A stretch of DNA of 64,000 bases from Pseudomonadota bacterium. Its GTDB lineage: Bacteria > Pseudomonadota > Gammaproteobacteria > Burkholderiales > Burkholderiaceae_C. The DNA lies in assembly GCA_020161065.1 (NCBI GenBank), contig JAIUPH010000005.1:62001-126000 (forward strand), given 5' to 3'. Position numbers and translations under genes: made by a program. The notes under the pieces were generated by a model that saw nothing but the letters and a program-made list of their open reading frames with translations, did no database searches and was not told the origin of the DNA. Positions 2 to 20,519 of the stretch are shown in pieces (positions within the stretch are counted from its first letter, which is position 1; each line of letters opens with the position of its first letter).

Positions 2-895
2 TGCGTGGGCCTGACGGCCTACGACCTGACCTGGGAGGTCGAAACCCTGCCGAGCGGCAGCGGCAAGAGCCGCGCCGCGAACTTCCGCCAGGGCGGCGGC
101 GGCATGGCCGCCAACGCCGCGGCCGCGGTGGCCCGGCTGGGCGGACGCGTGCATTTCTGGGGCCGCGCCGGCGACGACGCCGCCGGCCACGCGATGGCCG
201 ATGAACTGCGGGCGCTCGGCGTCGACGTCAGCGGCCTGCGGCTGTTCGCGGGCGCGCGCTCGTCGGTGTCGGGCGTCGTCGTCGATGCGCAAGGCGAGCG
301 CAGCATCGTCAACTTCCGCGGCGCGGCGCTGCCCGACGATGCGGCCTGGTTGCCGCTGGCCGTGGTCGCCGGCGCCGGCGCCGTGCTGGGCGACGTGCGC
401 TGGCCGGCGGGCGTGGCCGCCGCCTTCGCCACCGCGCGCCGGGCCGGCGTGCTCACCGTGCTGGATGGCGATGTCGCCGAGCCGGCCGTCTTCGATGCCT
501 TGCTGCCGCTATGCGACTACGCGGTGTTCTCGCAGCCCGGCCTGGCCGGCTATGCGCCGGGCCTGGGCGACGACGAAGCGCGGCTGCGCCACGCGCTGGC
601 GCGCGGCTGCCGCGTTGCGGCGGTGACGCTCGGCGAGCGCGGCGTCGTCTGGTCCGATGGCCCCGCGCTGCAGCGCCAGCCGGGCTTTCGCGTCACCGCG
701 GTCGACACCACCGGCGCCGGCGACGTGTTCCACGGCGCGCTGGCGCTGGCGCTGGCGGCGGGCGTGGACGCGGCCGAATCGTTCCGCTTCGCGGCCGCGG
801 TGGCCGCCTTGAAGTGCCAACAACCCGGTGGGCGCGCCGGCATCCCGGACCTGCCGCAGGTGCTGGCCGCGCTCGACCAACTCAAGGAGTCATGA
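2..895 (+). CDS. yihV: PfkB-family sulfofructose kinase, YihV-like (5' partial)
   Basis: PfkB/ribokinase-family sugar kinase. It looks closest to YihV, which phosphorylates 6-deoxy-6-sulfofructose with ATP in the cytosolic sulfo-EMP pathway. The frame is open from base 2 (CVGLTAYDL), so only about five N-terminal residues are probably missing; 297 are visible. The N-terminal PfkB signature GGGGMAANAAAAVARLGG and the C-terminal signature DTTGAGDVFHGAL with the catalytic Asp are present. LGDVRW, TVLDGD, FSQPGLA and PGGRAGIPD match my memory of YihV better than that of ribokinases or fructokinases. The TGA stop is followed one base later by the aldolase ATG, so the two are co-transcribed. An ordinary ketohexose kinase is the main alternative. 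Confidence 0.85.
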   Translation, partial: CVGLTAYDLTWEVETLPSGSGKSRAANFRQGGGGMAANAAAAVARLGGRVHFWGRAGDDAAGHAMADELRALGVDVSGLRLFAGARSSVSGVVVDAQGERSIVNFRGAALPDDAAWLPLAVVAGAGAVLGDVRWPAGVAAAFATARRAGVLTVLDGDVAEPAVFDALLPLCDYAVFSQPGLAGYAPGLGDDEARLRHALARGCRVAAVTLGERGVVWSDGPALQRQPGFRVTAVDTTGAGDVFHGALALALAAGVDAAESFRFAAAVAALKCQQPGGRAGIPDLPQVLAALDQLKES

Positions 896-896
896 C

Positions 897-1937
897 ATGC
901 AACTTCGCCTCGGCAAAACCTGGGGCCTGCGGCGCATGGCCGACGATGCCGGCCATTTCACGATGGTCGCGCTCGACCAGCGCCCGCCCATCGTCAACCT
1001 CGTGGCCGCCAAGCGCGGCATCGCGCCTTCGGAGGTCGGCTTCGCCGACATGACGGCGGTGAAGCGGCTGCTGGTCGAAGTGCTCGGCCAGGGTTCGAGC
1101 GCGATGCTGATGGACCCGAACTTCGCGTTGCCGGCGGCGCTGGACCAGTTGCCGCCGCACACCGGCCTCGTCATCACGCTCGAAGACCATCGCTTCCGCG
1201 ACACCGATGGCGGCCGGCTTTCGCATTCGATCCGCGACTGGAGCGTCGAGAAGATCAAGCGCGCCGGCGCCGACGGCGTCAAGGTGCTGGCCTGGTACCG
1301 GCCCGACGCGGCGGCCGACGTGCTGGCCCACCAGCGGCACTACGTGCGCAGCATCGGCGATGAATGCCGGCGCTGGGACATCCCCTACGTGCTGGAGTTG
1401 CTGGTCTACCCCTTCCCGAAGAGCGCCGGCCACACCACCGACTACGTCGAGGCGCCGGAGAAGATGCCGCAACTGGTGCTCGACAGCGTGGCCGAGTTCG
1501 CCAAGCCCGAGTACGGCGTCGACCTGTTCAAGCTGGAAGCGCCGCTGCCCGGCGCCACGCTGCCGGCGCCCGACGGCAGCGCCGCGCACCGCAGCGCGCA
1601 GCGCTGGTTCGACGACATGGGCGCGTTGTGCCGCGGCGCCGGCATCCCGTGGGTGATGCTGTCGGCCGGCGTCACGCCGCCGCAGTTCCTGCGCGTGATG
1701 GACTACGCCTACGCGGCCGGCGCCAACGGCTTCCTGGCCGGCCGCGCCATCTGGTGGGAGGCGATGCAGTCGTTCCCCGACCTCGCCGCCTGCCGCGCGC
1801 TGCTGCAGGCTCAGGGCGTCAACACCCTGGCCGAACTGGGCGCGCTGACGCGGCGCGCCGGCCACGCCTGGCGGCCCGACTACAGCGCGTTCGCCGCGAT
1901 GCATGCCGAAGGCGAGCTGTGCGCGGCTTACGCTTGA
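897..1937 (+). CDS. LacD/YihT-class class I aldolase (putative sulfofructose-phosphate aldolase)
   Basis: Class I (Schiff base) aldolase of the tagatose-1,6-bisphosphate aldolase LacD family, which also contains sulfofructose-phosphate aldolase YihT. The expected reaction here is sulfofructose 1-phosphate to DHAP plus sulfolactaldehyde. The probable Schiff-base lysine is K212 in LFKLEAPLPG. MVALDQRPP near residue 23, and SAGV and GANGFLAGRAIW near the C-terminus, match the family. At 346 aa it is longer than I remember for YihT (about 292) and LacD (about 330), so the substrate is not fixed by family. The adjacent YihV-like kinase and nearby YihU-like reductase favour a sulfosugar. The ATG at 897 sits just after the kinase stop; the AAGGAG inside the kinase end is a good ribosome site. 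Confidence 0.82.
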   Translation: MQLRLGKTWGLRRMADDAGHFTMVALDQRPPIVNLVAAKRGIAPSEVGFADMTAVKRLLVEVLGQGSSAMLMDPNFALPAALDQLPPHTGLVITLEDHRFRDTDGGRLSHSIRDWSVEKIKRAGADGVKVLAWYRPDAAADVLAHQRHYVRSIGDECRRWDIPYVLELLVYPFPKSAGHTTDYVEAPEKMPQLVLDSVAEFAKPEYGVDLFKLEAPLPGATLPAPDGSAAHRSAQRWFDDMGALCRGAGIPWVMLSAGVTPPQFLRVMDYAYAAGANGFLAGRAIWWEAMQSFPDLAACRALLQAQGVNTLAELGALTRRAGHAWRPDYSAFAAMHAEGELCAAYA

Positions 1938-1947
1938 AACGAGCGGA

Positions 1948-1975
1948 CACCCGGCGGCGCAGGCGCCGCCGGGTG
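1948..1975. terminator. Perfect 13-bp GC hairpin between convergent genes
   Basis: CACCCGGCGGCGC (1948-1960) and its exact reverse complement (1963-1975) are separated by two bases. It lies between the aldolase stop at 1937 and the leftward binding-protein stop at 2014, so it can serve both convergent transcripts. There is no clear U-tract on either side, so termination is inferred from position and stem stability. Confidence 0.6.
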
Positions 1976-2013
1976 GGTGGCTGATGCGCGCCGGGTGCGC
2001 GCCGGGTGCGCGC

Positions 2014-3078
2014 CTACTGCGTGCGGTTCGCGAAGGCCTTCAGCGTCGGGTTGTCGTCGACCAGCTTGAGGTATTGGCCGGTGATGTAGGTCTTGGCGTC
2101 GGGGATGTCGGTGATCGTGCCCACGCTCTTCAGGTAGCCCGACAAGGCGTCGAAAGCGCCGTCGACGACCGAGGGACCGGCGGCGCGCGAGAACAGCTTC
2201 ATCTGCTCGTCGAGCGTGAAGATCGGGCGCGCCATCTCCGACTTCAGGTGGCCGTCGTTGAGCTTGATGCCGTTGGCTTCGAAGAACTTGCGCAGCGCCG
2301 CCATGAACTCGGCCGGGTTGTTCTTCTGGTAGCTCACGGCGCGCAGGTACACCGCCAGGAACTTGGCCACCGCCTCGGGGTTCTGCTGCGCGAACTCCTT
2401 GCGCGTGATCAGCGCGCCGAGCACGCGCGCGCCCGCGTCCTTGCCGCTGCACACGGTCTCGGCGCCGACCTGGTCGCCCAGCGTGTAGGTGTTGGGCGCC
2501 CAGGTGCCGGCCAGCAGGCCGTTGCCGCCGGTGTAGGCCGACACCAGCTGCGCCGGCGCCAGCGGCACGATGTTGACCTCGCTGCGCTTGAGGCCCCACT
2601 TCTGCAGGCAGGCCATGGTGGCGTATTCGCCGGTCGAGTTCGGACTCAGCAGGATCTGCTGGCCTTTCACTTCGCGCGCCGGGTTGGCGCGAATCGCCGC
2701 CAGCTTGTCGGCGCGCGCGACCAGCGCGTTGGTGGCCGACTCGTCGTTGGTGAGGCCGATGGTCACGATGTCGTAGCGCTGCGCGCCCAGCACGGCCGGC
2801 GGCGAGCCGGTGCCGCCGACATCCCATGACCGGCTGGGCGCGCCGGCGATCTGCTGCGCGCCCGCCGGGTAGGCCACCAGCTCGGGCTTCAGGCCGGCCT
2901 CGGCCCACCAGTTCTTCTCGGTCGCCAGGAAGATCGGCAGCGCCCAGTACGCGACCTGGTAGCTGATCTTGATGGGCGTCGGCGCGGGCTGCGCCAGCGC
3001 GGGCAGAGGGCTGGCGGCGAATGCCGCCGCGGCCAGCGCGAGGGCGAAGGTGGGGCGCCGGAGGCGGCGGTGCGGCAT
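2014..3078 (-). CDS. NitT/TauT-type ABC transporter substrate-binding protein
   Basis: Periplasmic solute-binding protein of the SsuA/TauA/NMT1-like family, 354 aa. A Sec signal peptide is visible: basic MPHRRLRRP, a hydrophobic Ala/Leu stretch, then a PALAQ cleavage region near residue 27. The mature part opens with IKISYQVAYWALPIFLATEK, usual for sulfonate, nitrate or riboflavin-precursor binders. The ATG at 3078 is preceded by AGGAGACCC, which decides it over longer upstream starts. It is encoded opposite to its likely partners, the two permeases and ATPase at 5377-7825, and shares the promoter region with the LacI gene. An organosulfonate ligand is inferred from the locus; the fold alone does not tell. 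Confidence 0.85.
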   Translation of the reverse strand: MPHRRLRRPTFALALAAAAFAASPLPALAQPAPTPIKISYQVAYWALPIFLATEKNWWAEAGLKPELVAYPAGAQQIAGAPSRSWDVGGTGSPPAVLGAQRYDIVTIGLTNDESATNALVARADKLAAIRANPAREVKGQQILLSPNSTGEYATMACLQKWGLKRSEVNIVPLAPAQLVSAYTGGNGLLAGTWAPNTYTLGDQVGAETVCSGKDAGARVLGALITRKEFAQQNPEAVAKFLAVYLRAVSYQKNNPAEFMAALRKFFEANGIKLNDGHLKSEMARPIFTLDEQMKLFSRAAGPSVVDGAFDALSGYLKSVGTITDIPDAKTYITGQYLKLVDDNPTLKAFANRTQ

Positions 3079-3141
3079 GGTGGGTCTCCTTCTTCGAGTG
3101 GGCGCGCCGTGGACGAACGGTTTCCGTTTTGCGTGTAGATC

Positions 3142-3155
3142 TGAAAGCGCGTTCA
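3142..3155. promoter_or_regulatory. Predicted LacI-family operator O1
   Basis: TGAAAGCGCGTTCA differs by one base from the palindrome TGAAAGCGCTTTCA typical of LacI/GalR operators. It lies 64 bases upstream of the binding-protein start and about 120 bases upstream of the LacI start, in the divergent control region. A second copy lies at 3274-3287. Confidence 0.55.
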
Positions 3156-3272
3156 ATCTATCCTGATCGCCGCGGCAGAGGCTGTCAATCCATCTTTCCC
3201 TTGCAGCGCGCTGAAATTGGGTTTTCCCCAATGACGGCGGCGGCGCGTGGATGCTGCAATCCGGCCGAAATC

Positions 3273-4481
3273 ATGAATGCGCTTTCAGACGATTGGGTGG
3301 CCGACGCGCCGGCCGGACCGACCTGCACGCTGAAGGACCTGGCGGCGCGCAGCGGCATCTCGGCGGCCACGCTGTCGCGCGTGCTCAACCATCCGCAGAT
3401 CGTCCGCCCCGACCTGCGCGCGCGCGCCGAGTCGGTGCTGGCGCAGGCCGGCTACGTGCCGCACGGCGCGGCGCGGTCGCTGGCCTCGCGGCGCACGCGC
3501 ACCTTCGGCGCCGTGGTGCCCACGGTCGACAGCGCGCTGTTCGCCAAGATCGTCGAAGGCCTGCAACTTCGCGGCCGCGCTGAGGGCTACCAGCTGCTGG
3601 TGGCCAGCAGCGGCTACTCGCCGGCGCGCGAGGCCTCGCAAGTGCGCTCGCTGGTCGAGCGCGGCGTCGACGGCGTGGTGCTGGTCGGCGCCGTGCATGC
3701 CGAGTCGACGATCCAGATGCTGCAGGCGCGCGGCATCCCGTTCGTCTCCACCTGCCACCACGATCCGCGCGCCCCGTGGCCGACGGTGGGCTGGGACAAC
3801 GTGGCCTCGGCCGAGCGCGTGGCCGACTACCTGCTGGACATCGGCCACCGGCGCTTCGCCGTGATTGCCGGCATCACCGCCGACAACGACCGCGCGGCCG
3901 ATCGCGTCAACGGATTTCGCCAGGCCATCGAGCGCCGCGGCGGCCTGCTGCCGGCGGCCGACATCCTGCAGCGGCCCTACACCGTGGTGGAAGGCCGCGG
4001 CGCCATGGCCGCGCTGCTGCGCCGCCCGACGCCGCCGACCGCGGTGCTGTGCGGCAACGACATCCTCGCCTTCGGCGCGCTGCAGGAATGCCTGTGGCAG
4101 GGCGTCGACGTGCCGGGCCGCATCTCCGTCACCGGCTTCGACGACATCGAGATGGCGGCCCATTGCTGGCCCGGCATCACCACGCTGCACGTGCCGGCCA
4201 CCGCCATCGGCGAACGCGCGGCCGGCGTGCTGCTGGCGGCCATTGCGGGCGAGGCCGCCGGCGGCGACGACCACGTGAACCTGGAGCTCGAACTCATCCT
4301 GCGCGGCACGACGGCGCCGCCGCCCGGCGCGCGCCCGGTGGCGCGGCGCGCGGCCGCGCCGGCGCGGGCGGTGACGTCGGCGAAGTTGGCGAAGGCGGCG
4401 AAGGCGGTGAGCGCAACGAAGGCCACGAAAGCCACGAAAGCGACGAAGGCGACGAAAGCGACGAAGGCGAGGCGCTCATGA
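3273..4481 (+). CDS. LacI-family transcriptional regulator with Lys/Thr/Ala repeat tail
   Basis: LacI/GalR repressor, 402 aa from the ATG at 3273. It has an N-terminal helix-turn-helix (TLKDLAARSGISAATLSRVL, about residues 17-36) followed by a type I periplasmic-binding-like sensor domain with motifs such as VGWDNVASAERVADYLL and VTGFDDIEMA. An in-frame ATG at 3231 is an alternative; neither has a strong ribosome site. The C-terminus is unusual: after a low-complexity Ala/Arg stretch it ends in repeated Lys-Ala-Thr triplets. The stop overlaps the next ATG (ATGA at 4478-4481), coupling it to the reductase. Operators O1 and O2 suggest autoregulation and control of the divergent binding-protein gene. 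The inducer is probably a sulfosugar or its phosphate (inference). Confidence 0.88.
   Translation: MNALSDDWVADAPAGPTCTLKDLAARSGISAATLSRVLNHPQIVRPDLRARAESVLAQAGYVPHGAARSLASRRTRTFGAVVPTVDSALFAKIVEGLQLRGRAEGYQLLVASSGYSPAREASQVRSLVERGVDGVVLVGAVHAESTIQMLQARGIPFVSTCHHDPRAPWPTVGWDNVASAERVADYLLDIGHRRFAVIAGITADNDRAADRVNGFRQAIERRGGLLPAADILQRPYTVVEGRGAMAALLRRPTPPTAVLCGNDILAFGALQECLWQGVDVPGRISVTGFDDIEMAAHCWPGITTLHVPATAIGERAAGVLLAAIAGEAAGGDDHVNLELELILRGTTAPPPGARPVARRAAAPARAVTSAKLAKAAKAVSATKATKATKATKATKATKARRS
3274..3287. promoter_or_regulatory. Predicted LacI-family operator O2 at the regulator start codon
   Basis: TGAATGCGCTTTCA is a one-mismatch copy of TGAAAGCGCTTTCA. It begins one base after the A of the proposed LacI start codon at 3273. 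The centre-to-centre distance to O1 is 132 bp, compatible with looping by a dimer of dimers. Confidence 0.5.
4416..4470 (+). repeat. 9-bp tandem coding repeat (Thr-Lys-Ala units)
   Basis: About six consecutive copies of ACG-AAR-GCS encode a (TKA)n tail at the C-terminus of the LacI regulator. Third-position differences between copies show the repeat is not perfectly fresh. Slippage could change its length in register without disturbing the frame. Confidence 0.8.
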
Positions 4482-5380
4482 CGCGGGTGGCATTCCTCGG
4501 TCTCGGCGTGATGGGCGGCGCGATGCTGCGCAACCTGGTGCGTGCCGGCTTCGACGTGGCCGGCTACGACGTGTCGAGCGCCGCGCTGCAGCGCGTGGCC
4601 GACGCCGGCTGCCGCATCGCGGCGTCGCCGGCCGATGCCGCCGCCGGCGCCGACGTGCTGATCACCATGCTGCCCACCTCGCAGCACGTGCGCGAGGCGC
4701 TGTTCGGCCGCGACGGCGCCGCCGCCGCGCTGCCGCGCGGCGCGGTGGTGATCGAGATGAGCACCGGCGACGCCGTGCAGACCGACCGCATCGCCGAGGA
4801 ACTGGCCGCGCTGGGCCTGCGCTGCATCGACGCGCCGGTGGGCCGCACGCCGCGCGAAGCCGCCGCGGGCAAGGCGCTGATCATGGCCGGCGCCGATGCC
4901 GACGACCTGGCGCGCGTGCGCCCGCTGTTCGATGCGATGGCCGACACGGTGGTGCACGTCGGCCCGCGCGGCAGCGGCATCCGGCTCAAGCTGGTCAACA
5001 ACTACATGTCGATGGTCGGCATGGTGCTCACCGCCGAAGCGCTGATGTTCGCCGCCAAGCTGGGGCTGGACCGCGACACCACGGTGCGCGTGCTGTCCAA
5101 CACCACGGCCGGGCGCGGCCAGTTGCTGACCAACTTTCCGCGCAAGGTGCTGGCCGGCGACGTGACGGCGGACTTCCCGCTGCGCATGGGCCTGAAGGAC
5201 ATCCACCTGGCGCTGAACCTCGCCAACTCGGTGGGCGCGCCGCTGGGGCTGGGCGGCTACGCGCGCGAGATGTTCGCGCTGGCCCGCTCCTGGGGCCGCG
5301 AAGAGCAGGACTGCACCGCCATGCTGCTGCTGCTGGAAGACGTGGCGCACCTGCCGCGCGACGGCGAGGCCGCGGCATGA
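4478..5380 (+). CDS. yihU: Beta-hydroxyacid dehydrogenase, sulfolactaldehyde reductase YihU-like
   Basis: NAD(P)-dependent 3-hydroxyisobutyrate-dehydrogenase-family reductase, 300 aa. The Rossmann motif GLGVMG is at residues 8-13. DAPVGRT (119-124) and GIRLKLVNNYMS (167-178) match YihU closely. R123, K171, N174 and N175 coincide, from memory, with sulfolactaldehyde-binding residues of E. coli YihU. Ordinary HIBADH proteins usually read SGG or SGA where this one has VGRT. The expected reaction is sulfolactaldehyde plus NADH to 2,3-dihydroxypropane-1-sulfonate (DHPS), or the reverse. It overlaps the LacI gene upstream and the first permease downstream by ATGA, so it belongs to the transporter operon. 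Tartronate semialdehyde reductase is the main alternative. Confidence 0.85.
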   Translation: MTRVAFLGLGVMGGAMLRNLVRAGFDVAGYDVSSAALQRVADAGCRIAASPADAAAGADVLITMLPTSQHVREALFGRDGAAAALPRGAVVIEMSTGDAVQTDRIAEELAALGLRCIDAPVGRTPREAAAGKALIMAGADADDLARVRPLFDAMADTVVHVGPRGSGIRLKLVNNYMSMVGMVLTAEALMFAAKLGLDRDTTVRVLSNTTAGRGQLLTNFPRKVLAGDVTADFPLRMGLKDIHLALNLANSVGAPLGLGGYAREMFALARSWGREEQDCTAMLLLLEDVAHLPRDGEAAA

Positions 5381-7825: not shown

Positions 7826-9966
<2,141 letters not shown>

Positions 9967-9987
9967 CAGCGGCCCACCGAGACTGCG

Positions 9988-10989
9988 ATGAAAGCCCTCG
10001 TCTACACCCAACCCGGCGAAGTGGCGCTGCAAGACGTGCCCGAGCCCGTTGCCGCGCCGGGCGAAGTCGTGCTGCGCATCGACGCCGTGGGCGTCTGCGG
10101 TTCCGACATGCATGCCTGGCACGGCCACGACCCGCGGCGCCAGCCGGGCCTGGTGCTCGGTCACGAGTTCGTCGGCACCATCGAGACGTCGGCAGCGCCC
10201 GGCTTCGCGCCCGGCCGGCGCTACACCGGCAACCCACTCATCACCTGCGGGCATTGCGACTACTGCGTGCAGGGCCGCAACAACCTGTGCGTCAACCGCA
10301 CGATGGTCGGCATGACGCGGCCCGGCGCCTTTGCCGAGCGCATGAGCCTGCCGGCGGCCTCGCTGATCGCCATGCCGCAAGACCTGTCGACGCGCGCCGC
10401 GGCGCTGACCGAGCCGGCGGCCACTGCCTGGCACGCCATCGAGATGTCGATGCGCGCGCTGGTGCGGCCGCTGCACGAGTGCCAGGTGCTGGTCATCGGC
10501 GGCGGCGCCATCGGCCTGCTGGCGGCGCTGCTGCTGCGCCACCTGGGCGTCGCCGGCCTGACGGTGTCGGAAGCCAACCCCTTGCGCCGCGACGCCGTGG
10601 CGCGGCAGGTGGGCTGCGCCACGCTGGACCCGCGCGCCGCGGCGCCGCCGGAGTCGGCCTTCGACTACGTGATCGACGCCGTCGGCGCCGCCGCCACGCG
10701 CCGCCAGGCGCTGGCCAGCGTGCGCCCCGGCGGCGTGCTGATGCACGTGGGCCTGCAGGACTGGGCCAGCGAGATCGACATGCGCCGCCTCACGCTGGCC
10801 GAGATCACGCTGCTGGGCACCTACACCTACACCACCGCCGACCTGCGCGCCACGGTGGCGGCGCTGGCGCGCGGCGCCTTCGGCGACCTCTCGTGGGTGG
10901 AAGAGCGGCCGCTGGCGCAGGGCCAGCAGGCCTTTCTCGACCTCGACGCCGGGCGCTGCGCGGCGGCCAAGGTGGTGCTCGTTCCTTGA
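9988..10989 (+). CDS. Zn-dependent medium-chain dehydrogenase (possible HpsO/HpsP-type)
   Basis: MDR-family alcohol/polyol dehydrogenase, 333 aa. Catalytic Zn ligands C37 and H59-E60 (GHE) are present, as are the structural zinc cysteines C87, C90, C93 and C101 in CGHCDYCVQGRNNLC. The Rossmann motif is VIGGGAIGL. It resembles L-threonine, L-idonate or sorbitol dehydrogenases. It lies 21 bases after the SDR. With hpsN and the SDR it could form the DHPS-epimerising pair of an hpsNOP operon. Alternatively it could act as a butanediol-type dehydrogenase feeding the E1/E2 complex that follows. Confidence 0.85.
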   Translation: MKALVYTQPGEVALQDVPEPVAAPGEVVLRIDAVGVCGSDMHAWHGHDPRRQPGLVLGHEFVGTIETSAAPGFAPGRRYTGNPLITCGHCDYCVQGRNNLCVNRTMVGMTRPGAFAERMSLPAASLIAMPQDLSTRAAALTEPAATAWHAIEMSMRALVRPLHECQVLVIGGGAIGLLAALLLRHLGVAGLTVSEANPLRRDAVARQVGCATLDPRAAAPPESAFDYVIDAVGAAATRRQALASVRPGGVLMHVGLQDWASEIDMRRLTLAEITLLGTYTYTTADLRATVAALARGAFGDLSWVEERPLAQGQQAFLDLDAGRCAAAKVVLVP

Positions 10990-11034
10990 CCCGTTGAACG
11001 CTCGATTGACCGAACCCGATTGCCGACCGAACCG

Positions 11035-13218: not shown

Positions 13219-13225
13219 GGTGACG

Positions 13226-13717
13226 ATGACCACCACCAACAAACCCCTGCTCGACGGCCTGGTGATGCGGCCGCATCACACGGCGCTGTGCGTCGACGAC
13301 TTCGAGGCCGCGCGAGCGTTCTTCACCGAGCTGATCGGCATGCGCGTCGAAGGCGAGATGGACCAGCGCGGCGAGCCCGAACTGGGCCTGGTGGTCGGCC
13401 TGCCCGGCGCCTTGATCCGCTGGGCGATGCTGGAGCTGCAGGGCTACCGCGTCGAGCTGTTCAAGTACTACCGGCCGCACGATGGCCGGCGCATCGGCCT
13501 GCGCCAATGCGACCGCGCGCTGACGCACATCGCCTTCCAGGTCAGCGATGCCGACGAGACCTACGCGCGGCTGCGCGCCGCCGGCGTCGAGACCTACTCG
13601 GCGCCGCAAAACCTGCGCGGGGGGCGCACGCGGCCTTTCTATGCCGTGGGGCCGGAAGGCATCGCGGTCGAGTTCATCCAGTTGCGCGACGCTGCCGAGT
13701 TGCCGGCTGCGGCCTGA
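13226..13717 (+). CDS. VOC (glyoxalase/bleomycin-resistance) superfamily protein
   Basis: Single-chain VOC protein of 163 aa with two beta-alpha-beta-beta-beta modules. Candidate metal ligands lie in HHTALCVDD (about residues 18-26), LTHIAFQV, and the C-terminal Glu of GIAVEFIQL. Methylmalonyl-CoA epimerase and lactoylglutathione lyase have this layout. The ATG at 13226 has GAGGTG upstream; a GTG two codons earlier is also possible. It sits between E1 and E2, eight bases after E1, so it probably acts on the same substrate, perhaps as an epimerase, isomerase or lyase. The precise reaction cannot be read from the sequence. Confidence 0.8.
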   Translation: MTTTNKPLLDGLVMRPHHTALCVDDFEAARAFFTELIGMRVEGEMDQRGEPELGLVVGLPGALIRWAMLELQGYRVELFKYYRPHDGRRIGLRQCDRALTHIAFQVSDADETYARLRAAGVETYSAPQNLRGGRTRPFYAVGPEGIAVEFIQLRDAAELPAAA

Positions 13718-13733
13718 CCGATTTCGACGTCGC

Positions 13734-15074
13734 ATGTACAAGACCGTGATCCGACTGCCGCGACTGGGCGGCAACGAAGCCGAAGCCAAGATCCTGGCCT
13801 GGAAGAAAGCGCCCGGCGAGCCTTTCGCCAGCGACGAGACGCTGCTGGAAGTGGAGACCGACAAGGCCGTGGTCGAAGTGCCGGCGCCGGCCGCCGGCGT
13901 GCTGCGGCGCCGGCTGAAAGAGGCCGACGACCATGCCGACTACGACGAGGCGCTGGCCGAGGTCGAGCTCGAAGGCGAGGGCCCCAGCGATGGCGCGAGC
14001 GGCGAGCCGGAAGCGGCCGCCCCCGCGGCGCCGAGCCCGCCGCCGCCCTTGACGGCGGCGGCCGATGGCGGCGAAGCGGACCACGCGACGGCCGGCGTCG
14101 GCATGGCCGTCGGTGGCGGTGACCCGACGCGCCGCATCGCCTCGCCCGCCGCGCGCCGCGCGGCCCGCGACGCCGGCATCGAACTGGTTGGCCTGCGCGG
14201 CAGCGGCCCGCGCGGCCGCATCGTGCTGCGCGACCTGCCTTCGGCCGCGGCGGTGACGGCGGCGGCCGGCGACTGGCACCTGCGGCGCTGGAACGCCGCC
14301 GCCGGCGCCAGCGTGGCGCCGTCGACCGTGGTGCTGATCCACGGCCTGTACGGCGACGTCGACACCTGGGCCGGCCTGGCCAAGGGCTTGGCCGATGCCG
14401 GACAGCCGGTGCTGGCGCTGGACCTGCCGCTGCACGGCGCGACGCGCGCGACGGCGCGCTCGCTGCCCGAGATGGTGGCGGGCGTGCGCGCGCTGCTCGA
14501 CGCGCAGGTTCCCGGCCCGCGGCTGCTGGTCGGCCACTCGCTGGGCGGCGCGGTGGCGATCCGGCTCGCGCAGGCCGATGGCGGGCGCCGCATCGACGGC
14601 CTGGCGTTGATTGCGCCGGCAGGCCTGGGCACCGAGATCGACCAGGGCTTTATCGACGGCATGCTGAACGCGCGCGAGCCCGGCCTGCTGCGGCGCGAGT
14701 TGCAGAAGCTGACCAGCCGGCCGCAACCGCTGGGCGAAGCCTGGATCGCGGAGTTGCATGCGCGCCTGCGCGAACGCGCGGACGACCTGCGCTCGCTGAT
14801 CGACGGCTTCGCCGTGCGCGGCACGCAGCAGATCGACCTGCGCGCCGACCTCGCGGCGCTGGCCGCGCAAGGCCTGCCGGTCGCCGTGCTGTGGGGGCGG
14901 CGCGACCGCATCCTGCCGTGGCGCCAGGCGCTGGACCTGCCGCCGTCCGTGGCCTTGCACCTGTTCGCCGAAGCCGGCCACATGCCGCAGACCGAGCAGA
15001 CCGCCGTGGTGCTGCAGGTGCTGCAGCAACTCGCGCGGCTGGCGCCGCCGGGACCGGCCCTGCGCGCGGCTTGA
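13734..15074 (+). CDS. Lipoyl-E2 fused to alpha/beta hydrolase (AcoC-like)
   Basis: Acyltransferase component of 446 aa. An N-terminal lipoyl domain (about 1-80) has the lipoyl lysine K44 in ETDKA. An Ala/Pro-rich linker leads to a peripheral-subunit-binding domain (about 133-168, ASPAARRAARDAGIEL), then an alpha/beta hydrolase (about 195-440) with the HG oxyanion turn, nucleophile S269 in GHSLGG and a late His in EAGHMPQ. The CAT domain of ordinary E2 proteins is absent. This layout is that of AcoC from acetoin dehydrogenase complexes. It should receive an acyl group from the E1 fusion and release an acyl-CoA or free acid. The E3 must be encoded elsewhere. Confidence 0.87.
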   Translation: MYKTVIRLPRLGGNEAEAKILAWKKAPGEPFASDETLLEVETDKAVVEVPAPAAGVLRRRLKEADDHADYDEALAEVELEGEGPSDGASGEPEAAAPAAPSPPPPLTAAADGGEADHATAGVGMAVGGGDPTRRIASPAARRAARDAGIELVGLRGSGPRGRIVLRDLPSAAAVTAAAGDWHLRRWNAAAGASVAPSTVVLIHGLYGDVDTWAGLAKGLADAGQPVLALDLPLHGATRATARSLPEMVAGVRALLDAQVPGPRLLVGHSLGGAVAIRLAQADGGRRIDGLALIAPAGLGTEIDQGFIDGMLNAREPGLLRRELQKLTSRPQPLGEAWIAELHARLRERADDLRSLIDGFAVRGTQQIDLRADLAALAAQGLPVAVLWGRRDRILPWRQALDLPPSVALHLFAEAGHMPQTEQTAVVLQVLQQLARLAPPGPALRAA

Positions 15075-15138: not shown

Positions 15139-15948
15139 TCACACCGGCCGCGACAACAGGTGCACGTAGTCGTGGCGGGCCGTGTTGATGGTCGACAGGC
15201 GAAACTCGACCGGCTTGTCGCCGAAGGTCAGCGCGGTGCGGTGGACCTCCATCACCGGCGAGCCGGCCTGCACGCCCAGGATGCGTGTGGCGGTGCGGTC
15301 GGCGCCCACGGCGCGGGCGCGCTCGTGCGCCCGCGTCACGGTGATCGCGAACACCGTCTGGTAGAGGTGGTAGATGGTGCTGGGCCGCTCGCGAAAGCGC
15401 CGCTCGGTCAGCCCCTTGTACAGCGACGCGGGCAGCGCCAACCGGTCGTGAATGACGGCCTGCCCCTGCAGCAGCAAACGGTTCTCGATCTCGAAGATCG
15501 GCTCGCCGGCCTTCAGCCCCAGCGCCGCGGCCTGCGTCTCGCCGGCGCGGGCGCGGTCGAAGTGCAGCAGCTCGACCTTGGGCACTTCCTGCAGGCCGTC
15601 GCAGCGCTCGACGTGGAAGAACTGGAACAGGAAGCGGTCGGCATTGTGGACGGCGACGAAGGTGCCGCGGCCATGCTGGCGCACGACGATGTGCTCGGCG
15701 ACCAGTTCGTCCACCGCATGGCGCACCGTGCCGATGGAAACGCCGAAGGCGCGCGCCAGGTCGGCCTCGCTGGGCAGGGCCGAGCCCGGCGTGCACGATC
15801 CGTGCTCGATGGCCTGCAGCAGCGCGCGCTTGACGGCCCGGTACAGCGAGCCCGCCACCGTGCCCGGCTGCACGCGCTCGAACCGGGCCTCCGTCGGGGT
15901 CGCCGTTCGGGCCGCCGTCCGCATCGACGCACGCGGCTTGGTCGTCAT
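15139..15948 (-). CDS. GntR-family (HutC subfamily) transcriptional regulator
   Basis: GntR regulator of 269 aa. The winged helix is at about residues 33-98 (ALPSEADLARAFGVSIGTVRHAVDELVAE, split here as PSEADLARAFGVS and TVRHAVDEL). It is followed by a UTRA ligand-binding domain ending near HRTALTFGDKPVEFRLS. The ATG at 15948 is chosen over a TTG at 15969. The gene points away from suyA across a 114-base gap holding a palindrome at 15970-15983, so it probably controls suyAB and itself. Published suy clusters that I recall use IclR- or LysR-type regulators, so a GntR regulator here is somewhat different. Confidence 0.87.
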   Translation of the reverse strand: MTTKPRASMRTAARTATPTEARFERVQPGTVAGSLYRAVKRALLQAIEHGSCTPGSALPSEADLARAFGVSIGTVRHAVDELVAEHIVVRQHGRGTFVAVHNADRFLFQFFHVERCDGLQEVPKVELLHFDRARAGETQAAALGLKAGEPIFEIENRLLLQGQAVIHDRLALPASLYKGLTERRFRERPSTIYHLYQTVFAITVTRAHERARAVGADRTATRILGVQAGSPVMEVHRTALTFGDKPVEFRLSTINTARHDYVHLLSRPV

Positions 15949-15969
15949 GATTTTGGCGCTACCATCCAA

Positions 15970-16062: not shown

Positions 16063-16344
16063 ATGATTCACTTCGTGTTGCACGACGCCAAGGACACGGT
16101 GGCCGTGGTCGTCGTCGAGGGCGTGAAAGCCGGCCAGACGCTCAGCGGCTGGATCATGGACGAAGACCGCATGACCAGCCTCGAAGCGCGCCAGGACATC
16201 CCCATCGGCCACAAGATCGCGCTGAAGGACATGGCCACCGGCGACACCGTGTGGAAGTACGGCATCGACATGGGCAAGGTGGTGGCGCCGATCAAGGCGG
16301 GCGAGCACGCCCACGTGCAGAACATCAAGACCAAGCGCTGGTAA
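16063..16344 (+). CDS. suyA: Sulfolactate sulfo-lyase small subunit SuyA
   Basis: Small SAF-domain protein of 93 aa, equivalent to the N-terminal domain of altronate/galactarate dehydratases. Together with SuyB it forms (R)-sulfolactate sulfo-lyase, which splits 3-sulfolactate into pyruvate and sulfite. Motifs [19 protein letters not shown] and [14 protein letters not shown] are typical. A CAGGAG ribosome site at 16049-16054 selects the ATG at 16063. suyB starts 16 bases after its stop. The assignment as SuyA and not a UxaA fragment rests mainly on its SuyB partner and the surrounding sulfonate genes. Confidence 0.9.
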
Positions 16345-16360
16345 GCAACAAGGAACGTAC

Positions 16361-17536
16361 ATGCCCGTCATCCAATCCGACACCACCTTCCTCGGCTACC
16401 GGCGCGAGAACGGCCGCGTGGGCGTGCGCAACCACGTCGTCATCCTGCCGCTGGACGACTTGTCCAACGCCGCGGCCGAGGCCGTCGCCCACAACATCAA
16501 GGGCGCGCTGGCGATCCCGCACCCCTACGGCCGGCTGCAGTTCGGCGCCGACCTCGACCTGCACTTCCGCACCCTCATCGGCGCCGGCTGCAACCCCAAC
16601 GTCGCCGCCGTCGTGGTGATCGGCATCGAGGACGGCTGGACCAAGAAGGTGGTCGACGGCATCGCCGCCACCGGCAAGCCGGTGGTCGGCTTCGGCATCG
16701 AAGGCCATGGCGACCACGACACCATCATGCGTGCCAGCAAGGCGGCGCGCGAGTTCGTCCAGTGGGCCAGCGAGAAGCAGCGCGAGGCCTGCCCGATTGC
16801 CGAGCTGTGGGTCTCCACCAAGTGCGGCGAGAGCGACACCACCAGCGGCTGCGGCGCCAACCCGACCGTCGGCAACGCCTTCGACAAGCTGCACCCGCTG
16901 GGCAACTACCTGTGCTTCGGCGAGACCAGCGAGATCACCGGCGGCGAGCGCATCGTCGCCGAGCGCTGCAAGACGCCCGAGATCGCCGAGCGCTTCATGT
17001 TCATGTTCAACCGCTACCAGGACATGATCAACCGCCACAAGACCACCGACCTGAGCGAAAGCCAGCCGACCAAGGGCAACATCGCCGGCGGCCTGACGAC
17101 CATCGAAGAAAAGGCGCTCGGCAACATCCAGAAGATCGGCAAGAAGTGCACGGTCGACGGCGTCATCGACAAGGCCGAGCTGCCCACGCACCCGGGGCTG
17201 TGGTTCATGGATTCGTCGTCGGCGGCGGCCGAGATGGTGACGCTGTGCGCCGCCAGCGGCTACGTCGTCCACTTCTTCCCCACCGGCCAGGGCAACGTGA
17301 TCGGCAACCCCATCCTGCCGGTGATCAAGATCTGCGCCAACCCGCGCACGGTGCGGCTGATGAGCGAGCACGTCGACGTCGACAGCTCCGGGCTGCTGCA
17401 GCGCGAGATCACGCTCGACCAGGCCGGCGACAAGCTGCTCGAATGCATGCTGCGCACCGCCAACGGCCGGCTGACGGCGGCCGAGGCGCTGGGCCATCGC
17501 GAGTTCGTGCTGACGCGTTTGTACGAAAGCGCCTGA
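16361..17536 (+). CDS. suyB: Sulfolactate sulfo-lyase large subunit SuyB
   Basis: Large subunit of 391 aa of the UxaA/GarD dehydratase superfamily. The opening [20 protein letters not shown] and the stretch [20 protein letters not shown] agree closely with my memory of characterised SuyB proteins. [19 protein letters not shown] contains conserved cysteines expected to hold the catalytic Fe site. It carries out C-S bond cleavage of sulfolactate, the desulfonation step of the locus. It lies directly after suyA and seven bases before slcC. A generic altronate dehydratase is less likely because the small and large parts are separate and flanked by slcC and comC homologues. Confidence 0.9.
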
Positions 17537-17542
17537 GGCCGC

Positions 17543-18475
17543 ATGGCGCGCATCGTCATCGCCGAGTTCATGGACGACGCGGCCGTCGCGCGGCTGCAGG
17601 CCGCGCACGACGTGCTGTACGACGCGCAACTCGTCGACGACGCGCCGCGCCTGCTGGCCGCAGCGGCCGCCGCCGATGCGCTGATCGTGCGCAACCGCAC
17701 GCAGGTGCGCGGCGAACTGCTGGGCGCGCTGGCGCGCTGCCGCGTGGTCGGCCGGCTCGGCGTGGGGCTCGACAACATCGACGTGGCGGGCTGCGAGCAG
17801 CGTGGCATGCAGGTGATCCCGGCGACCGGCGCCAACGCGCTGAGCGTCGCCGAATACGTGATCGGCACCGCGATGCTGCTGCTGCGCGGCGCCTACGGCG
17901 CCAGCGCCGAGGTGGCGGCCGGCCGCTGGCCGCGCGCCCAGCTGTCCAACGGCCGCGAGCTGGCGGGCAAGACGCTGGGGCTGGTGGGCTTCGGCGCGAT
18001 CGGCCAGACCACGGCGCGGCTGGCGCGCGCGCTGTCGATGGACGTGATCGCCTTCGATTCGATGCTCGACCGCGGCCACCCGTCGTACGACGAACTGGGC
18101 GTGGCCTGCGAAGGCTTGCAGGCCGTGCTGGCGCGCGCCGATGTCGTGAGCCTGCACGTGCCGCTGGTCGAGTCGACGCGCAACTTGATCGACGCCGACC
18201 GCCTGGCCGGCATGAAGCCGGGGGCCGTGCTCATCAACACCTCGCGCGGCGGCATCGTCGACGAAGCGGCGCTGGCGCAGGCGCTGCGCAGCGGCCACCT
18301 GGGCGGCGCGGCGCTCGATGTCTTCGAGACCGAGCCGCTGCCGGCGCACAGCGCGCTGGCCGACGTACCCCACCTGCTGCTGACGCCGCATGTCGCCGGC
18401 GTGACGCACGAGTCGAACCAGCGCGTCAGCAGCGTCATCGCCGACCAGGTGCTGGAGGCGCTGGCGCGCGCATGA
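17543..18475 (+). CDS. slcC: D-2-hydroxyacid dehydrogenase, (S)-sulfolactate dehydrogenase SlcC-like
   Basis: NAD-dependent D-isomer-specific 2-hydroxyacid dehydrogenase, 310 aa. The Rossmann motif GFGAIG is near residues 152-157; the catalytic Arg is in NTSRGGIVDE, with a Glu in FETEPLP and a His in LLTPHVAG. SlcC of Chromohalobacter oxidises (S)-sulfolactate to sulfopyruvate, and with ComC it converts the S to the R form needed by SuyAB. Its position between suyB and a ComC-type gene is the main reason for this call. Phosphoglycerate dehydrogenase or hydroxypyruvate reductase would share these motifs. Confidence 0.83.
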   Translation: MARIVIAEFMDDAAVARLQAAHDVLYDAQLVDDAPRLLAAAAAADALIVRNRTQVRGELLGALARCRVVGRLGVGLDNIDVAGCEQRGMQVIPATGANALSVAEYVIGTAMLLLRGAYGASAEVAAGRWPRAQLSNGRELAGKTLGLVGFGAIGQTTARLARALSMDVIAFDSMLDRGHPSYDELGVACEGLQAVLARADVVSLHVPLVESTRNLIDADRLAGMKPGAVLINTSRGGIVDEAALAQALRSGHLGGAALDVFETEPLPAHSALADVPHLLLTPHVAGVTHESNQRVSSVIADQVLEALARA

Positions 18476-19530
18476 CCACGATGACGCTGGAGCAGGCGGC
18501 CGCAGCGGTTGCCTCGGCATTGCGACGAGCCGGCGCCAACGACGGCATGGCGCAAGCCGCGGCGCGCGCGCTGGTGCTGGCCGAAGCGCAAGGCCTGGCC
18601 TCGCATGGCCTGAGCCGCGTGCCGCAGTACGTGGCGCACCTGAAGCTGGGCCGCGTGAACGGGCAGGCCGTGCCCTCGCTGCTGGGCGGACGCGGCGGCG
18701 CCGTGCGCGTCGATGCCCACGAAGGCCTGGCCTTTGCGGCCTGCGAGCTGGCCGTGGACGAAGCGATCCGCCGCGCGCGCGAGTTCGGCATCAGCTTCGC
18801 CGGCGTGACCAACAGCCACCACGCGGGCGTCATCGTCGACCACCTGCGGCCGGTGGTGGCGGCCGGCATGGTCGGGCTCGGCTTCGCCAACTCGCCGGCG
18901 GCGATGCCGGCGGCCGGCGGGCGCCACCCCATCTTCGGCACCAACCCGGTGGCGGCGGCCTTCCCGCGCCGCGTGGCCGGCGCCACAGGCGCCAACGCCG
19001 CCAACGCGGCCGCGGCGGACCCGCTGCTGATCGACCTCAGCCTCGCCGAAGTGGCGCGCGGCAAGGTCATGCTGGCGGCCAAGCAAGGGCGGCCCATTCC
19101 GCCCGGCTGGGCGCTCGATGCCCAGGGACAGCCGACCACCGATGCGCAAGCGGCGCTGCAGGGCTCGATGCTGCCGGTGGGCGCGGCCAGCAGTGCCAAG
19201 GGCGCGATGCTGGCGCTGGTGGTCGAGCTGCTGGTCACCGCGTTGATCGGCGCGCAGTTCGGCTTCGAGGCATCGAGCTTCTTCGTCGACGAAGGCAACC
19301 GGCCGCGCATCGGCCAGGCCTTCATCGTCGTCGACCCCGCGGCGCTGGCCGGCGCCGAGGCCTACTTCCAGCGCGTGGAAGTGCTGGTGGCCGAGATGCT
19401 GGTCGACGATGGCGTGCGCCTGCCCGGCGCGCGCCGCGAGGCCTTGCGCCGCCAGGCCGAACGCGACGGCATCGACGTGCCGCCAACGCTGTTGCCCCCG
19501 CCGCCTTCTTCCGACCACCAGGAGACCTGA
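18472..19530 (+). CDS. comC: Malate/L-lactate dehydrogenase-family (R)-sulfolactate dehydrogenase ComC-like
   Basis: Ldh2/ComC-family NAD(P)H oxidoreductase, 352 aa. The conserved SHGLSRVPQYV is near residues 43-53, the catalytic-site motif TNSHHAGVIVDHLRP near 112-126, and FGTNPVAAAFPR near 158-169. ComC reduces sulfopyruvate to (R)-sulfolactate. Combined with SlcC it racemises sulfolactate, as described in Chromohalobacter. The start overlaps the slcC stop by ATGA. An Ala/Asn-rich insertion (about residues 176-185) lies just after the substrate region. Ureidoglycolate or malate dehydrogenase activity is the family alternative. Confidence 0.83.
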   Translation: MTTMTLEQAAAAVASALRRAGANDGMAQAAARALVLAEAQGLASHGLSRVPQYVAHLKLGRVNGQAVPSLLGGRGGAVRVDAHEGLAFAACELAVDEAIRRAREFGISFAGVTNSHHAGVIVDHLRPVVAAGMVGLGFANSPAAMPAAGGRHPIFGTNPVAAAFPRRVAGATGANAANAAAADPLLIDLSLAEVARGKVMLAAKQGRPIPPGWALDAQGQPTTDAQAALQGSMLPVGAASSAKGAMLALVVELLVTALIGAQFGFEASSFFVDEGNRPRIGQAFIVVDPAALAGAEAYFQRVEVLVAEMLVDDGVRLPGARREALRRQAERDGIDVPPTLLPPPPSSDHQET

Positions 19531-19532
19531 AG

Positions 19533-20519
19533 ATGATTCGACGAGCCCTGCTTCGAAGCGCCGCGTTCATGGCGATAGCCGCGGCCGGCGCCATCGCTGC
19601 CGCGCCCGCCGTCGCGCAGGACTACCCGAAGCCGGGCAGCACGATCCGCTACGTCGTGCCGTTCCCGCCCGGCGGGCTGACCGACGTGATGGCGCGGCTG
19701 GTCGCGCAGCAGCTCGGCAGCAACTGGAAGCTCAACGTGGTGGTCGACAACAAGCCGGGCAGCGGCGGCATGATCGGCGCCGATGCGGTGGCCAAGGCGG
19801 CGCCGGACGGCTCGACCATCCTCGCCGTGACGATGGCGCATGCGGTCAACGCGACGCTGTTCCGCGACCGCGCGCCTTACGACTTCGAGCGCGACCTGCG
19901 CGCCGTGGCGCTGCTGGCGGGCAGCCCGATGCTCGTGGTCGTGCCGACCGCCAGCCCGATCCGCGACCTGAAGGACCTGGTGGCGCAGGCCCGCGCGCGG
20001 CCGCTGAACGCCGGCTCCAGCGGCAACGGCACGCCGCCGCACCTGACGCTGGCGCTGTTCAACCTGCAGAACCAGACGAAGATCCAGCACATCCCGTACA
20101 AGGGCGGCGCGCCGTCGATGACCGACCTGATCGGCGGCCAGCTCGACGTCATCTTCAGCAACTTTCCCGAGTCGGTGGCGCACGTCAAGGCCGGCAAGCT
20201 GCGCGCGCTGGCGATCACCAGCGCACAGCGTCACCCGGCGCTGCCCGACGTGCCGACGGCGGCCGAAGCCGGCATGCCGCAACTGACGGTGGAAAACTGG
20301 ACGGCCATCATGGCGCCGGCCGGCATGCCCGACGCCGCGGTGCAGGCGCTCGGCAACGAGGTCGTCAAGATCATGGCGGCGCCCGACATGGACGAGAAGG
20401 CCAAGGCCCAGGGCTTCCGCGTCGATGCGCGCGGGCCCAAGGCCTTCGGCGAGTTCGTGCACAGCGAGGTCAAACGTTGGGCCGGCGTGGTGCAGGGCGC
20501 GGGCATTCGCGCCGAATAG
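19533..20519 (+). CDS. TctC/Bug-family tripartite tricarboxylate transporter substrate-binding protein
   Basis: Periplasmic Bug/TctC protein of 328 aa with a Sec signal peptide (hydrophobic Ala-rich core, cleavage near APAVAQ at about residue 29). Typical family motifs are VPFPPGGLTDVMARLV, NKPGSGGMIGADAVAKA and PYKGGAPSMTDLIGGQ. A GGAGACCTGAAG ribosome site precedes the ATG. In some sulfolactate loci the equivalent gene (slcH) is followed by membrane genes slcFG; here no TctA or TctB follows, so it may use a distant membrane pair or act as a sensor. Orphan Bug proteins are common in Burkholderiales. Confidence 0.88.
   Translation: MIRRALLRSAAFMAIAAAGAIAAAPAVAQDYPKPGSTIRYVVPFPPGGLTDVMARLVAQQLGSNWKLNVVVDNKPGSGGMIGADAVAKAAPDGSTILAVTMAHAVNATLFRDRAPYDFERDLRAVALLAGSPMLVVVPTASPIRDLKDLVAQARARPLNAGSSGNGTPPHLTLALFNLQNQTKIQHIPYKGGAPSMTDLIGGQLDVIFSNFPESVAHVKAGKLRALAITSAQRHPALPDVPTAAEAGMPQLTVENWTAIMAPAGMPDAAVQALGNEVVKIMAAPDMDEKAKAQGFRVDARGPKAFGEFVHSEVKRWAGVVQGAGIRAE

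Follow-up and report, generated by a model that had tools for sequence, protein, structure and literature searches.

A bacterial locus with adjoining gene sets that could take a sulfosugar to pyruvate and sulfite

Can neighbouring genes of one bacterium carry a sulfosugar through to pyruvate and sulfite? The breakdown of such sugars is commonly depicted as a division of labour, in which 2,3-dihydroxypropane-1-sulfonate (DHPS) or sulfolactate is excreted by one species and desulfonated by another. The question is raised by positions 2 to 20519 of a 64,000-nucleotide stretch from a Pseudomonadota bacterium (the window hereafter, i.e., C30:62001-126000 of its own genome, G000, of 6.29 Mb, 41 contigs and 98.7% completeness), in which an earlier sequence-only reading had seen both halves of such a pathway. 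We examined this whole region together with the 17 kb located 5' of window base 1, for which open reading frames (ORFs) were listed. Every gene named in the sequence-only reading proved to be an open ORF where it had been placed, with matches far above chance. ORF and profile inspection revealed three neighbouring units, A, B and C, each with its own regulator (Table 1). As a whole, the locus is best explained, in a reading that we favour with modest confidence, by a route in which a sulfosugar is split by unit A, the resulting sulfolactaldehyde (SLA) is reduced to DHPS, and the latter is desulfonated by units B and C.

The kinase and aldolase of unit A

Only the last two genes of unit A, encoding a kinase and an aldolase, lie inside the window, with the remainder 5' of base 1. 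The longest reading of the kinase comprises 335 amino acids (aa) (C30:61888-62895), its longest start lying 113 bases 5' of base 1. The kinase is 48% identical to Escherichia coli YihV over 291 aa and 31% identical to RbsK, and its best match in the PDB is the sulfofructose kinase 7ag6 (251 bits; runner-up, 170 bits). In a 28-row tree, in which long outgroup branches were flagged, it was placed within a 22-row YihV clade (support 96/97), apart from RbsK, FruK, PsuK, PfkB and LacC, and not with the ordinary sugar enzymes. At the columns of YihV residues K27, N109 and R138, which we take to be sulfonate-binding, a role that we did not find in print, the same three residues occur in the window kinase, the kinases of the 14 other unit A loci described below and those of loci L027 to L029 (18/18 rows), whereas the full triad occurs in none of five ordinary PfkB kinases (N109 is present in FruK and PsuK, and K27 in PfkB). 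The triad is partly kept in L042, L043 and L044, with none of it kept in L009. The tree and the triad together rule out an ordinary ribokinase-type sugar kinase, and the window kinase, as judged from its sequence, is a true YihV relative.

The trio of kinase, aldolase and reductase had been described as YihV-, YihT- and YihU-type. While this holds for the kinase and, at 41% identity, for the reductase of unit B, the aldolase scores nearer to LacD than to YihT. Because it matches the LacD-type model PRK12858 and is only 29% identical to YihT, with which it shares the Pfam family PF01791, it is not a YihT orthologue; the long YihT branch also argues against orthology, in a tree that is poorly resolved around the window row. 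The column of YihT K193, presumably the Schiff-base residue, holds Lys in both the window aldolase and LacD, and YihT cannot be told from LacD by the Lys and Arg columns. The closest solved structure is PDB 8tnf (453 bits).

What the aldolase might release is indicated by its neighbours elsewhere. The enzyme was found in 4 of 399 family genomes (E up to 1e-20) and in 9 of 398 phylum genomes (E up to 1e-50), the own genome being included in both counts; a separate scan of genome contigs gave only four loci. Five of the eight other genomes of the phylum scan carry unit A (L022-L026), and three have a YihV-like kinase with the aldolase in a different setting. In the first of these (L027, G688:C11), the pair sits beside an SqvD-like isomerase (G688:C11:651926-653302), SuyA, SuyB, SlcC, an aldose-1-epimerase and a PF03601 membrane protein; in the second (L028, G653:C13), beside an SqvD-like isomerase; and in the third (L029, G464:C1), beside an SqvD-like isomerase (NCBIfam SftI, 252 bits, under the cut-off of 700), an aldose-1-epimerase, a succinate-semialdehyde dehydrogenase (SSADH)/SlaB-like gene, SlcC and ComD (TIGR03845, 160 bits, over the cut-off of 148). 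This gene context is the main reason to read the aldolase product as SLA. From homology and context, the enzyme is predicted to be a 6-sulfoketose-1-phosphate aldolase yielding dihydroxyacetone phosphate and SLA, so that unit A probably makes SLA. The evidence largely favours the sulfosugar reading in the case of the kinase and, through gene context, in that of the aldolase. Further candidates for single-locus pathways of sulfosugar desulfonation are L027, with SuyAB/SlcC alongside, and L029, with SlaB-like/SlcC/ComD genes. Apart from these, L043 of Deinococcus peraridilitoris pDEIPE01 clusters an L-fucose-isomerase-family gene, a PfkB kinase, a 36% identical aldolase, a TIM-barrel gene and an SSADH, and its annotation resembles a sulfoquinovose cluster.

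The entry step and the recurrence of unit A

The sequence-only reading expected yihQ- and yihS-like genes before base 1. None is present in the upstream stretch, which holds instead a LacI regulator, a sugar ATP-binding cassette (ABC) importer, a short-chain dehydrogenase/reductase (SDR) and a zinc alcohol dehydrogenase of the medium-chain dehydrogenase/reductase (MDR) type. Searches of G000 gave no match to GH31 (PF01055; controls positive in 6 of 14 genomes, GH188 not searched for), to the YihS family (PF07221, whose control gave no match in E. coli either) or to YihS itself, the last in a search without a positive control. An SqvD-like isomerase was found in none of the six unit A genomes searched (G000, G094, G053, G177, G779 and G726), the same search being positive in G653 and G688. 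With neither an isomerase nor a GH31 match, sulfoquinovose is unsupported as the substrate and is disfavoured here; some bacteria that use Embden-Meyerhof-Parnas-type sulfoglycolysis (sulfo-EMP) lack GH31 (PMC8873060, PMC10755693). The sulfofucolytic Sfc genes, i.e., the mandelate racemase/muconate-lactonizing enzyme (MR/MLE) dehydratase SfcF and the PF03328 aldolase SfcE, are not among the recognised genes of units A to C, PF03328 not having been searched genome-wide; the nearest G000 homologue of the MR/MLE gene of L006 is 44% identical and lies on a different contig.

Unit A recurs in betaproteobacteria and rhizobia, e.g., Variovorax, Shinella and Sinorhizobium. We counted 15 loci (the window, L006, L007, L008, L014, L016 and L018-L026), with L007 starting inside the MDR and L022 ending inside the binding protein. 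The MDR, ATPase, kinase and aldolase are present in all 15, and an adjoining SDR in 13, the exceptions being L014, in which none was found, and the truncated L007. Since the MDR is invariably present and no isomerase was found in six of six genomes, we read unit A as a sulfo-EMP-like cassette in which the isomerase is replaced. Both the sulfo-EMP and sulfo-EMP2 pathways have an isomerase, and hybrids are also described (review PMC12890257). In the literature searched by title and start of abstract, subscription papers and supplements lying outside this scope, we found no cassette that combines a YihV kinase with a dehydrogenase substituting for the isomerase. Our tentative suggestion, somewhat short of an even chance, is that unit A represents an undescribed branch of sulfoglycolysis, which a sulfo-alditol or epimeric sulfosugar would enter through the zinc alcohol dehydrogenase, usually with the SDR, and which is here coupled to a YihU-like, HpsO/HpsP and HpsN bridge that would correct the stereochemistry of the C3-sulfonate before SuyAB. 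The lack of a recognised isomerase in the cassette suggests that bacteria such as those listed above use a sulfosugar or sulfo-alditol that has yet to be named.

The nearest relatives of the unit A binding protein are sugar-ABC binding proteins (102.6 bits and, for one annotated for sorbitol, 82.5 bits), with SmoF, the sulfoquinovosyl-glycerol binder, in sixth place (67.5 bits). The MDR matches 8wwd, which we take to be HpsP from the series of PDB entries, with 97 bits, and the SDR matches 8wwf (HpsO) with 104 bits; both matches are distant, the former about as good as that to threonine 3-dehydrogenase and the latter weaker than those to other SDRs. Four of the 14 sister cassettes (L006, L020, L021 and L022) contain an SSADH/SlaB-like gene, the best match of which in L006 is the Rhizobium leguminosarum-type 8c54 (779 bits; next, 697 bits); we take 8c54 to be the SLA dehydrogenase of PMC10599462, in whose text the code was not found. 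A mandelate-racemase-family gene is present in nine of the 14 (L006, L007, L016, L020, L021 and L023-L026, as two frames in L024); in many relatives, though not in the window, it comes after the aldolase. A TauE-family gene occurs in L018, L020 and L021. The sulfofucose dehydratase SfcF falls in the same Pfam pair as this mandelate-racemase-family gene. Downstream of unit A in Neorhizobium (L019:13873-21809) are two genes annotated as arylsulfatases, one for a sulfatase-modifying factor and those for an ABC importer of nitrate/sulfonate type.

The lower half and its bridge to unit A

Units B and C were compared with Cupriavidus pinatubonensis HN-2 plasmid p2 (L011) and Paracoccus versutus pTAV3 (L012), in which only hpsN and hpsO bear hps names. 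As proposed in the sequence-only reading, an HpsN-type dehydrogenase is accompanied by SDR and MDR partners (79%, 68% and 61% identical to their C. pinatubonensis counterparts) and SuyAB is followed by SlcC- and ComC-type genes; by these identities, the lower half is the known DHPS/sulfolactate system. HpsN retains Glu318, His319 and Asp352, whose roles are given in PMC11382572, and the gene order hpsRNOUPsuyAB of that study agrees with the naming of the MDR and SuyAB by order. SuyB was also named by order, the reference records being annotated as UxaA family, and the P. versutus SlcC and ComC references are annotated by family only. SuyA and SuyB adjoin, and both score far under the cut-off of the galactarate dehydratase model. 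The best NCBIfam model of ComC is L-sulfolactate dehydrogenase (176 bits; cut-off, 500). Genes in both units are tightly packed, with overlaps of a few bases at 5377/5380, 7022, 9196/9199 and 18472/18475. A domain of the sulfite-oxidase dimerisation type on contig C33 (PF03404, 67 bits) is a possible sulfite outlet.

The reductase of unit B is best matched in the PDB by YihU (6sm7, 221 bits; next, 140 bits), not by an ordinary sugar enzyme, and has PVGRT and KL-NNYM stretches in common with YihU. It could join the two halves. Sulfoglycolysis of sulfoquinovose leads to S-DHPS or S-sulfolactate, and the preference of HpsN for R-DHPS is about a millionfold (PMC11382572), which makes a detour via DHPS sensible. 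No close copy of SlaB, the type of SLA dehydrogenase in four sister cassettes, was found in G000, where the best match is a 59%-identical SSADH, and so we take the YihU-like enzyme for the step from SLA to DHPS. The proposed route would begin with uptake of a C6 sulfosugar or sulfo-alditol by the ABC importer of unit A and its conversion by the zinc alcohol dehydrogenase and SDR to a 6-deoxy-6-sulfo-ketohexose, which the YihV-type kinase would phosphorylate at C1 and the LacD-type aldolase would split as predicted above. SLA reduced to DHPS would then be brought to the R form by HpsO/HpsP and oxidised by HpsN to (R)-sulfolactate, which SuyAB would cleave to pyruvate and sulfite, while SlcC/ComC would convert any S-sulfolactate. 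The HpsN, SuyAB and SlcC/ComC steps have been shown in other organisms and are assigned here by identity. Unit B would also import outside DHPS, and unit C possibly sulfolactate, so that the lower half could work with or without unit A. Altogether, the whole route to pyruvate and sulfite is plausible.

The distribution of these genes is consistent with such a coupling. Among the 399 family genomes, 31 have hpsN (E up to 1e-140), including three of the four with unit A (G000, G094 and G053) compared to 28 of the 395 others (one-sided Fisher p = 0.0016, with small counts and kinship ignored). The hps loci were inspected in 14 of the 31 (G000, G094 and twelve hand-picked genomes), some of whose contigs are cut (L053); the second hpsN copies of G201 and G337 lie outside this inspection, and that of G005 was seen in part. 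A YihU-like gene was present in the hps region of three of three genomes with unit A and hpsN and in two of 11 with hpsN only (p = 0.027, again with small counts and kinship ignored), the identities being 84% in G094, 78% in G053, 81% in G046 and 56% in G158. In the last genome the gene lies on another contig (L032), whose E2 start, together with the E2 end with which L052 begins, suggests that the two contigs adjoin. The distribution of the YihU-like gene hints that reduction to DHPS bridges the halves, which so far are adjacent only in the own genome, their co-occurrence being wider.

A TauA/SsuA-type binding protein and a LacI regulator are encoded between the aldolase and the reductase. 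Between HpsP and unit C lies a set of genes absent from the earlier description. It encodes a fused E1, a VOC protein and an AcoC-like E2 (11020-15074) and is also found in G094 (L030/L031); in G158 (L032), a 61-62% identical E1 is followed by VOC, the YihU-like gene and the E2 start. In L033-L037, relatives with 50-54% identity are surrounded by stretches that gave no match to HpsN or SuyAB. A sulfonate-specific role is not supported by these relatives, while the arrangement in G158 may point otherwise; one idea is that the substrate of the set might be sulfopyruvate or the 2-oxo form of DHPS.

Alternative readings and known systems

Several observations weigh against the coupled route. No isomerase or sulfosugar glycosidase was found, which leaves its entry step conjectural; the reductase reaches 280 bits with the NCBIfam SLA reductase model PRK15461, under the cut-off of 348; the 59%-identical SSADH might oxidise SLA; and in G177, which carries unit A, the search for HpsN gave nothing at E 1e-140. 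The sequence-only reading had spoken of one locus, and both halves do adjoin, but units A, B and C are separately regulated, and A and B lie on separate contigs in the relatives G053 (unit A on C59, hps on C47) and G094 (C208 and C185), where in G094 other genes sit 5' of the hps locus. HpsO and HpsP are reported to act at C2 in PMC11382572 and, both of them, at C3 in PMC11131964; their inversion of DHPS is no more than a published proposal, and a disputed one, and action at C3 would make the inversion route fail. In Paracoccus wurundjeri, sulfofucose did not significantly raise a PF00294 kinase or a PF01791 aldolase encoded in its suyAB cluster (PMC12421959). DhpA of Desulfovibrio DF1, a relative of YihU, works as a DHPS dehydrogenase (PMC6278857), and this precedent gives rise to the main rival, in which two unrelated abilities are neighbours: unit A would be self-contained, SLA leaving by a distant aldehyde dehydrogenase or by excretion, while B and C would scavenge DHPS and sulfolactate with the YihU-like enzyme as an S-DHPS dehydrogenase. 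The separate regulators, importers and contigs fit this account, as do the YihU-like genes of G046 and G158, both without a unit A aldolase match, and the 28 of 31 hpsN genomes that lack this aldolase; the two co-occurrences described above and the lack of a close SlaB speak against it, and we consider it rather unlikely.

Two other readings concern the substrate. That unit A degrades an unsulfonated hexitol or ketohexose, e.g., of tagatose type, and merely resembles sulfoglycolysis would agree with the LacD-type aldolase, with alcohol dehydrogenases that fit a polyol, with the sugar-ABC and sorbitol-annotated relatives of the binding protein that outrank SmoF, and with a Devosia relative whose 44% identical aldolase is accompanied by a kinase without the triad. 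It is improbable, however, given the likeness of the kinase to YihV, the triad, which all 15 unit A kinases keep and none of the five ordinary PfkB kinases does, and the SlaB-, TauE- and SuyAB-type neighbours in relatives. Standard sulfo-EMP breakdown of sulfoquinovose, for which another part of the genome would have to encode an isomerase or glycosidase that escaped recognition, appears still less probable: the kinase and reductase are of sulfo-EMP type and the isomerase searches were sequence-based, with the control limits and the scope given above, but no GH31 match and no SqvD-like isomerase were found, the latter in G000 and the five other unit A genomes, and the zinc dehydrogenase is present in every unit A locus.

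The locus shares features with several other systems. Like the E. coli sulfo-EMP cluster (yihQRSTUV; L010), the locus has a YihV-type kinase, an aldolase of the class I family and a YihU-type reductase; it differs in having no YihQ or YihS match, a LacD-type aldolase, an ABC importer and two dehydrogenases at the place of the isomerase, and in that DHPS is not the expected end product. The C. pinatubonensis and P. versutus clusters both have HpsN-SDR-MDR and SuyAB, and that of P. versutus also has a TauT-type ABC importer (48-66%), the SlcC/ComC types and a TTT (tripartite tricarboxylate) binding protein at 29% (54% for Cupriavidus), whereas their stretches of 29 and 25 kb contain no YihU-like, E1-VOC-E2 or unit A match. 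Unlike unit A, L027-L029 have the SqvD-like isomerase and, in the stretches compared, lack both a unit A zinc dehydrogenase and any match to HpsN at 70 bits; a distant pair of sugar-ABC permeases (29-31%) is present in L029. Shinella sp. HZN7 pShin-03 (L020) and Sinorhizobium medicae pSymA (L021) share the unit A order from LacI to aldolase, except that the SDR is not in the first part; the SSADH (SlaB-like), the SDR, the mandelate-racemase-family protein and a TauE-family exporter follow, and no hps or suy match lies in the stretch compared.

The closest published parallel is cluster 2 of P. wurundjeri strain Merri (PMC12421959), likened here by its description, not by sequence. It combines SuyAB-SlcC-ComC, sulfosugar genes and an ABC importer, and it contains the PF00294 kinase and PF01791 aldolase with a zinc dehydrogenase two locus numbers before the kinase, a unit A-like spacing; its proven route is of Entner-Doudoroff type (SfcH/D/F/E), and the main text makes no mention of HpsN. 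The zinc dehydrogenase was raised by sulfofucose, and the protein did not oxidise SLA. In that organism, the kinase and aldolase pair is without a known role and the SLA dehydrogenase step is unassigned; the locus described here suggests an alternative, in which SLA would be reduced to DHPS and an HpsN-type enzyme would act next. The sequence-only reading had called the steps usually split between organisms. Both halves are adjacent here, but single organisms taking a sulfosugar to sulfite are already in print, i.e., P. wurundjeri (PMC12421959), with sulfofucose as the substrate, and, as a prediction, Ensifer sp. HO-A22 (PMC10599462). The discussion of PMC12421959 calls both halves in one bacterium unusual, and around SLA dehydrogenases sulfoglycolytic and DHPS-degrading clusters were mutually exclusive save in one Ensifer (PMC10599462). 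The adjacency of the halves here, and their presence together in the genomes of two sampled relatives, make complete use by a single bacterium testable.

Table 1. Genes of units A to C in gene order and the mandelate-racemase-family genes of sister loci (coordinates are those of the window unless prefixed by a contig or locus)
Unit	Feature	Coordinates	Strand	Remarks
A	LacI regulator	C30:54816-55847	-	ORF upstream of window
A	Sugar ABC binding protein	C30:56030-57319		ORF upstream of window
A	SDR	C30:57306-58124		ORF upstream of window
A	Two sugar ABC permeases	up to C30:59822		ORFs upstream of window
A	Zinc alcohol dehydrogenase (MDR)	C30:59826-60809		ORF upstream of window
A	Sugar ABC ATPase	C30:60811-61881		ORF upstream of window
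A	YihV-type PfkB kinase	2..895	+	5' end outside window; last-but-one gene
A	Class I aldolase, LacD/PRK12858-type	897..1937	+	NCBIfam PRK12858, 379 bits (cut-off 184)
B	TauA/SsuA-type periplasmic binding protein, sulfonate importer	2014..3081	-	SsuA_fam 103.5 bits, under cut-off 163.5; 48% to P. versutus hps-cluster binding protein
B	LacI-family regulator	3273..4481 (start approximate)	+	About 40% to LacI of Cupriavidus and Paracoccus hps clusters
B	YihU-like SLA reductase or DHPS dehydrogenase	4484..5380	+	41% to YihU
B	TauT-type ABC importer, permeases and ATPase	5377-6210, 6213-7022; 7022-7825	+	56%, 59%, 66% to P. versutus hps importer
B	HpsN, DHPS 3-dehydrogenase	7886..9199	+	79% to C. pinatubonensis, 61% to P. 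versutus; PDB 8v35, 764 bits
B	HpsO-type SDR	9196..9966	+	68% to C. pinatubonensis HpsO; 57% P. versutus
B	HpsP-type zinc alcohol dehydrogenase (MDR)	9988..10989	+	61% to C. pinatubonensis hps-cluster MDR (HpsP by gene order); 46% P. versutus
B	Fused alpha/beta E1, acetoin/2-oxoacid-dehydrogenase-like	11020..13218	+	Pfam E1_dh, Transket_pyr, Transketolase_C
B	VOC (glyoxalase-like) protein	13220..13717	+	Pfam Glyoxalase
B	AcoC-like E2: lipoyl, E3-binding, alpha/beta hydrolase domains	13734..15074	+	NCBIfam PRK14875, 288.5 bits, under cut-off 307
C	GntR regulator, divergent	15139..15969	-	37% to GntR of P. versutus cluster
C	SuyA	16063..16344 (ORF opens 15979; 16063 fits 93-aa Cupriavidus protein)	+	72% over 93 aa Cupriavidus; 48% P. 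versutus
C	SuyB, (R)-sulfolactate sulfo-lyase large subunit	16361..17536	+	85% C. pinatubonensis; 67% P. versutus
C	SlcC-type sulfolactate dehydrogenase	17543..18475	+	57% to P. versutus SlcC candidate
C	ComC-type sulfolactate dehydrogenase	18472..19530	+	46% to P. versutus ComC candidate
C	TTT binding protein	19533..20519	+	54% to TTT protein of Cupriavidus hps/suy cluster
Sister loci	Mandelate-racemase/muconate-lactonizing gene	L006:11034-12194, L007:3268-4398, L016:5297-6376, L020:15307-16476; also L023-L026, L046 (G053 hps locus)		

The two transport systems and two regulators of the sequence-only reading are those within the window (the TauT-type ABC importer and TTT binding protein, and LacI and GntR), to which unit A adds a third importer and a further LacI upstream. 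No TTT permease was recognised by eye among the ORFs that follow the TTT binding protein. By eye, the genes directly 3' of unit C (20542-24539) were read as ModABC, an importer of molybdate, together with a regulator resembling ModE. Those at about 25500-35250 were read as a set of anaerobic benzoyl-CoA type, with a 2-oxoacid:ferredoxin oxidoreductase, a protein like 6-oxocyclohex-1-ene-carbonyl-CoA hydrolase, and reductase and activator subunits. A second UxaA-type pair of small and large genes, similar to SuyA/SuyB, was likewise seen by eye at 51477-53008.

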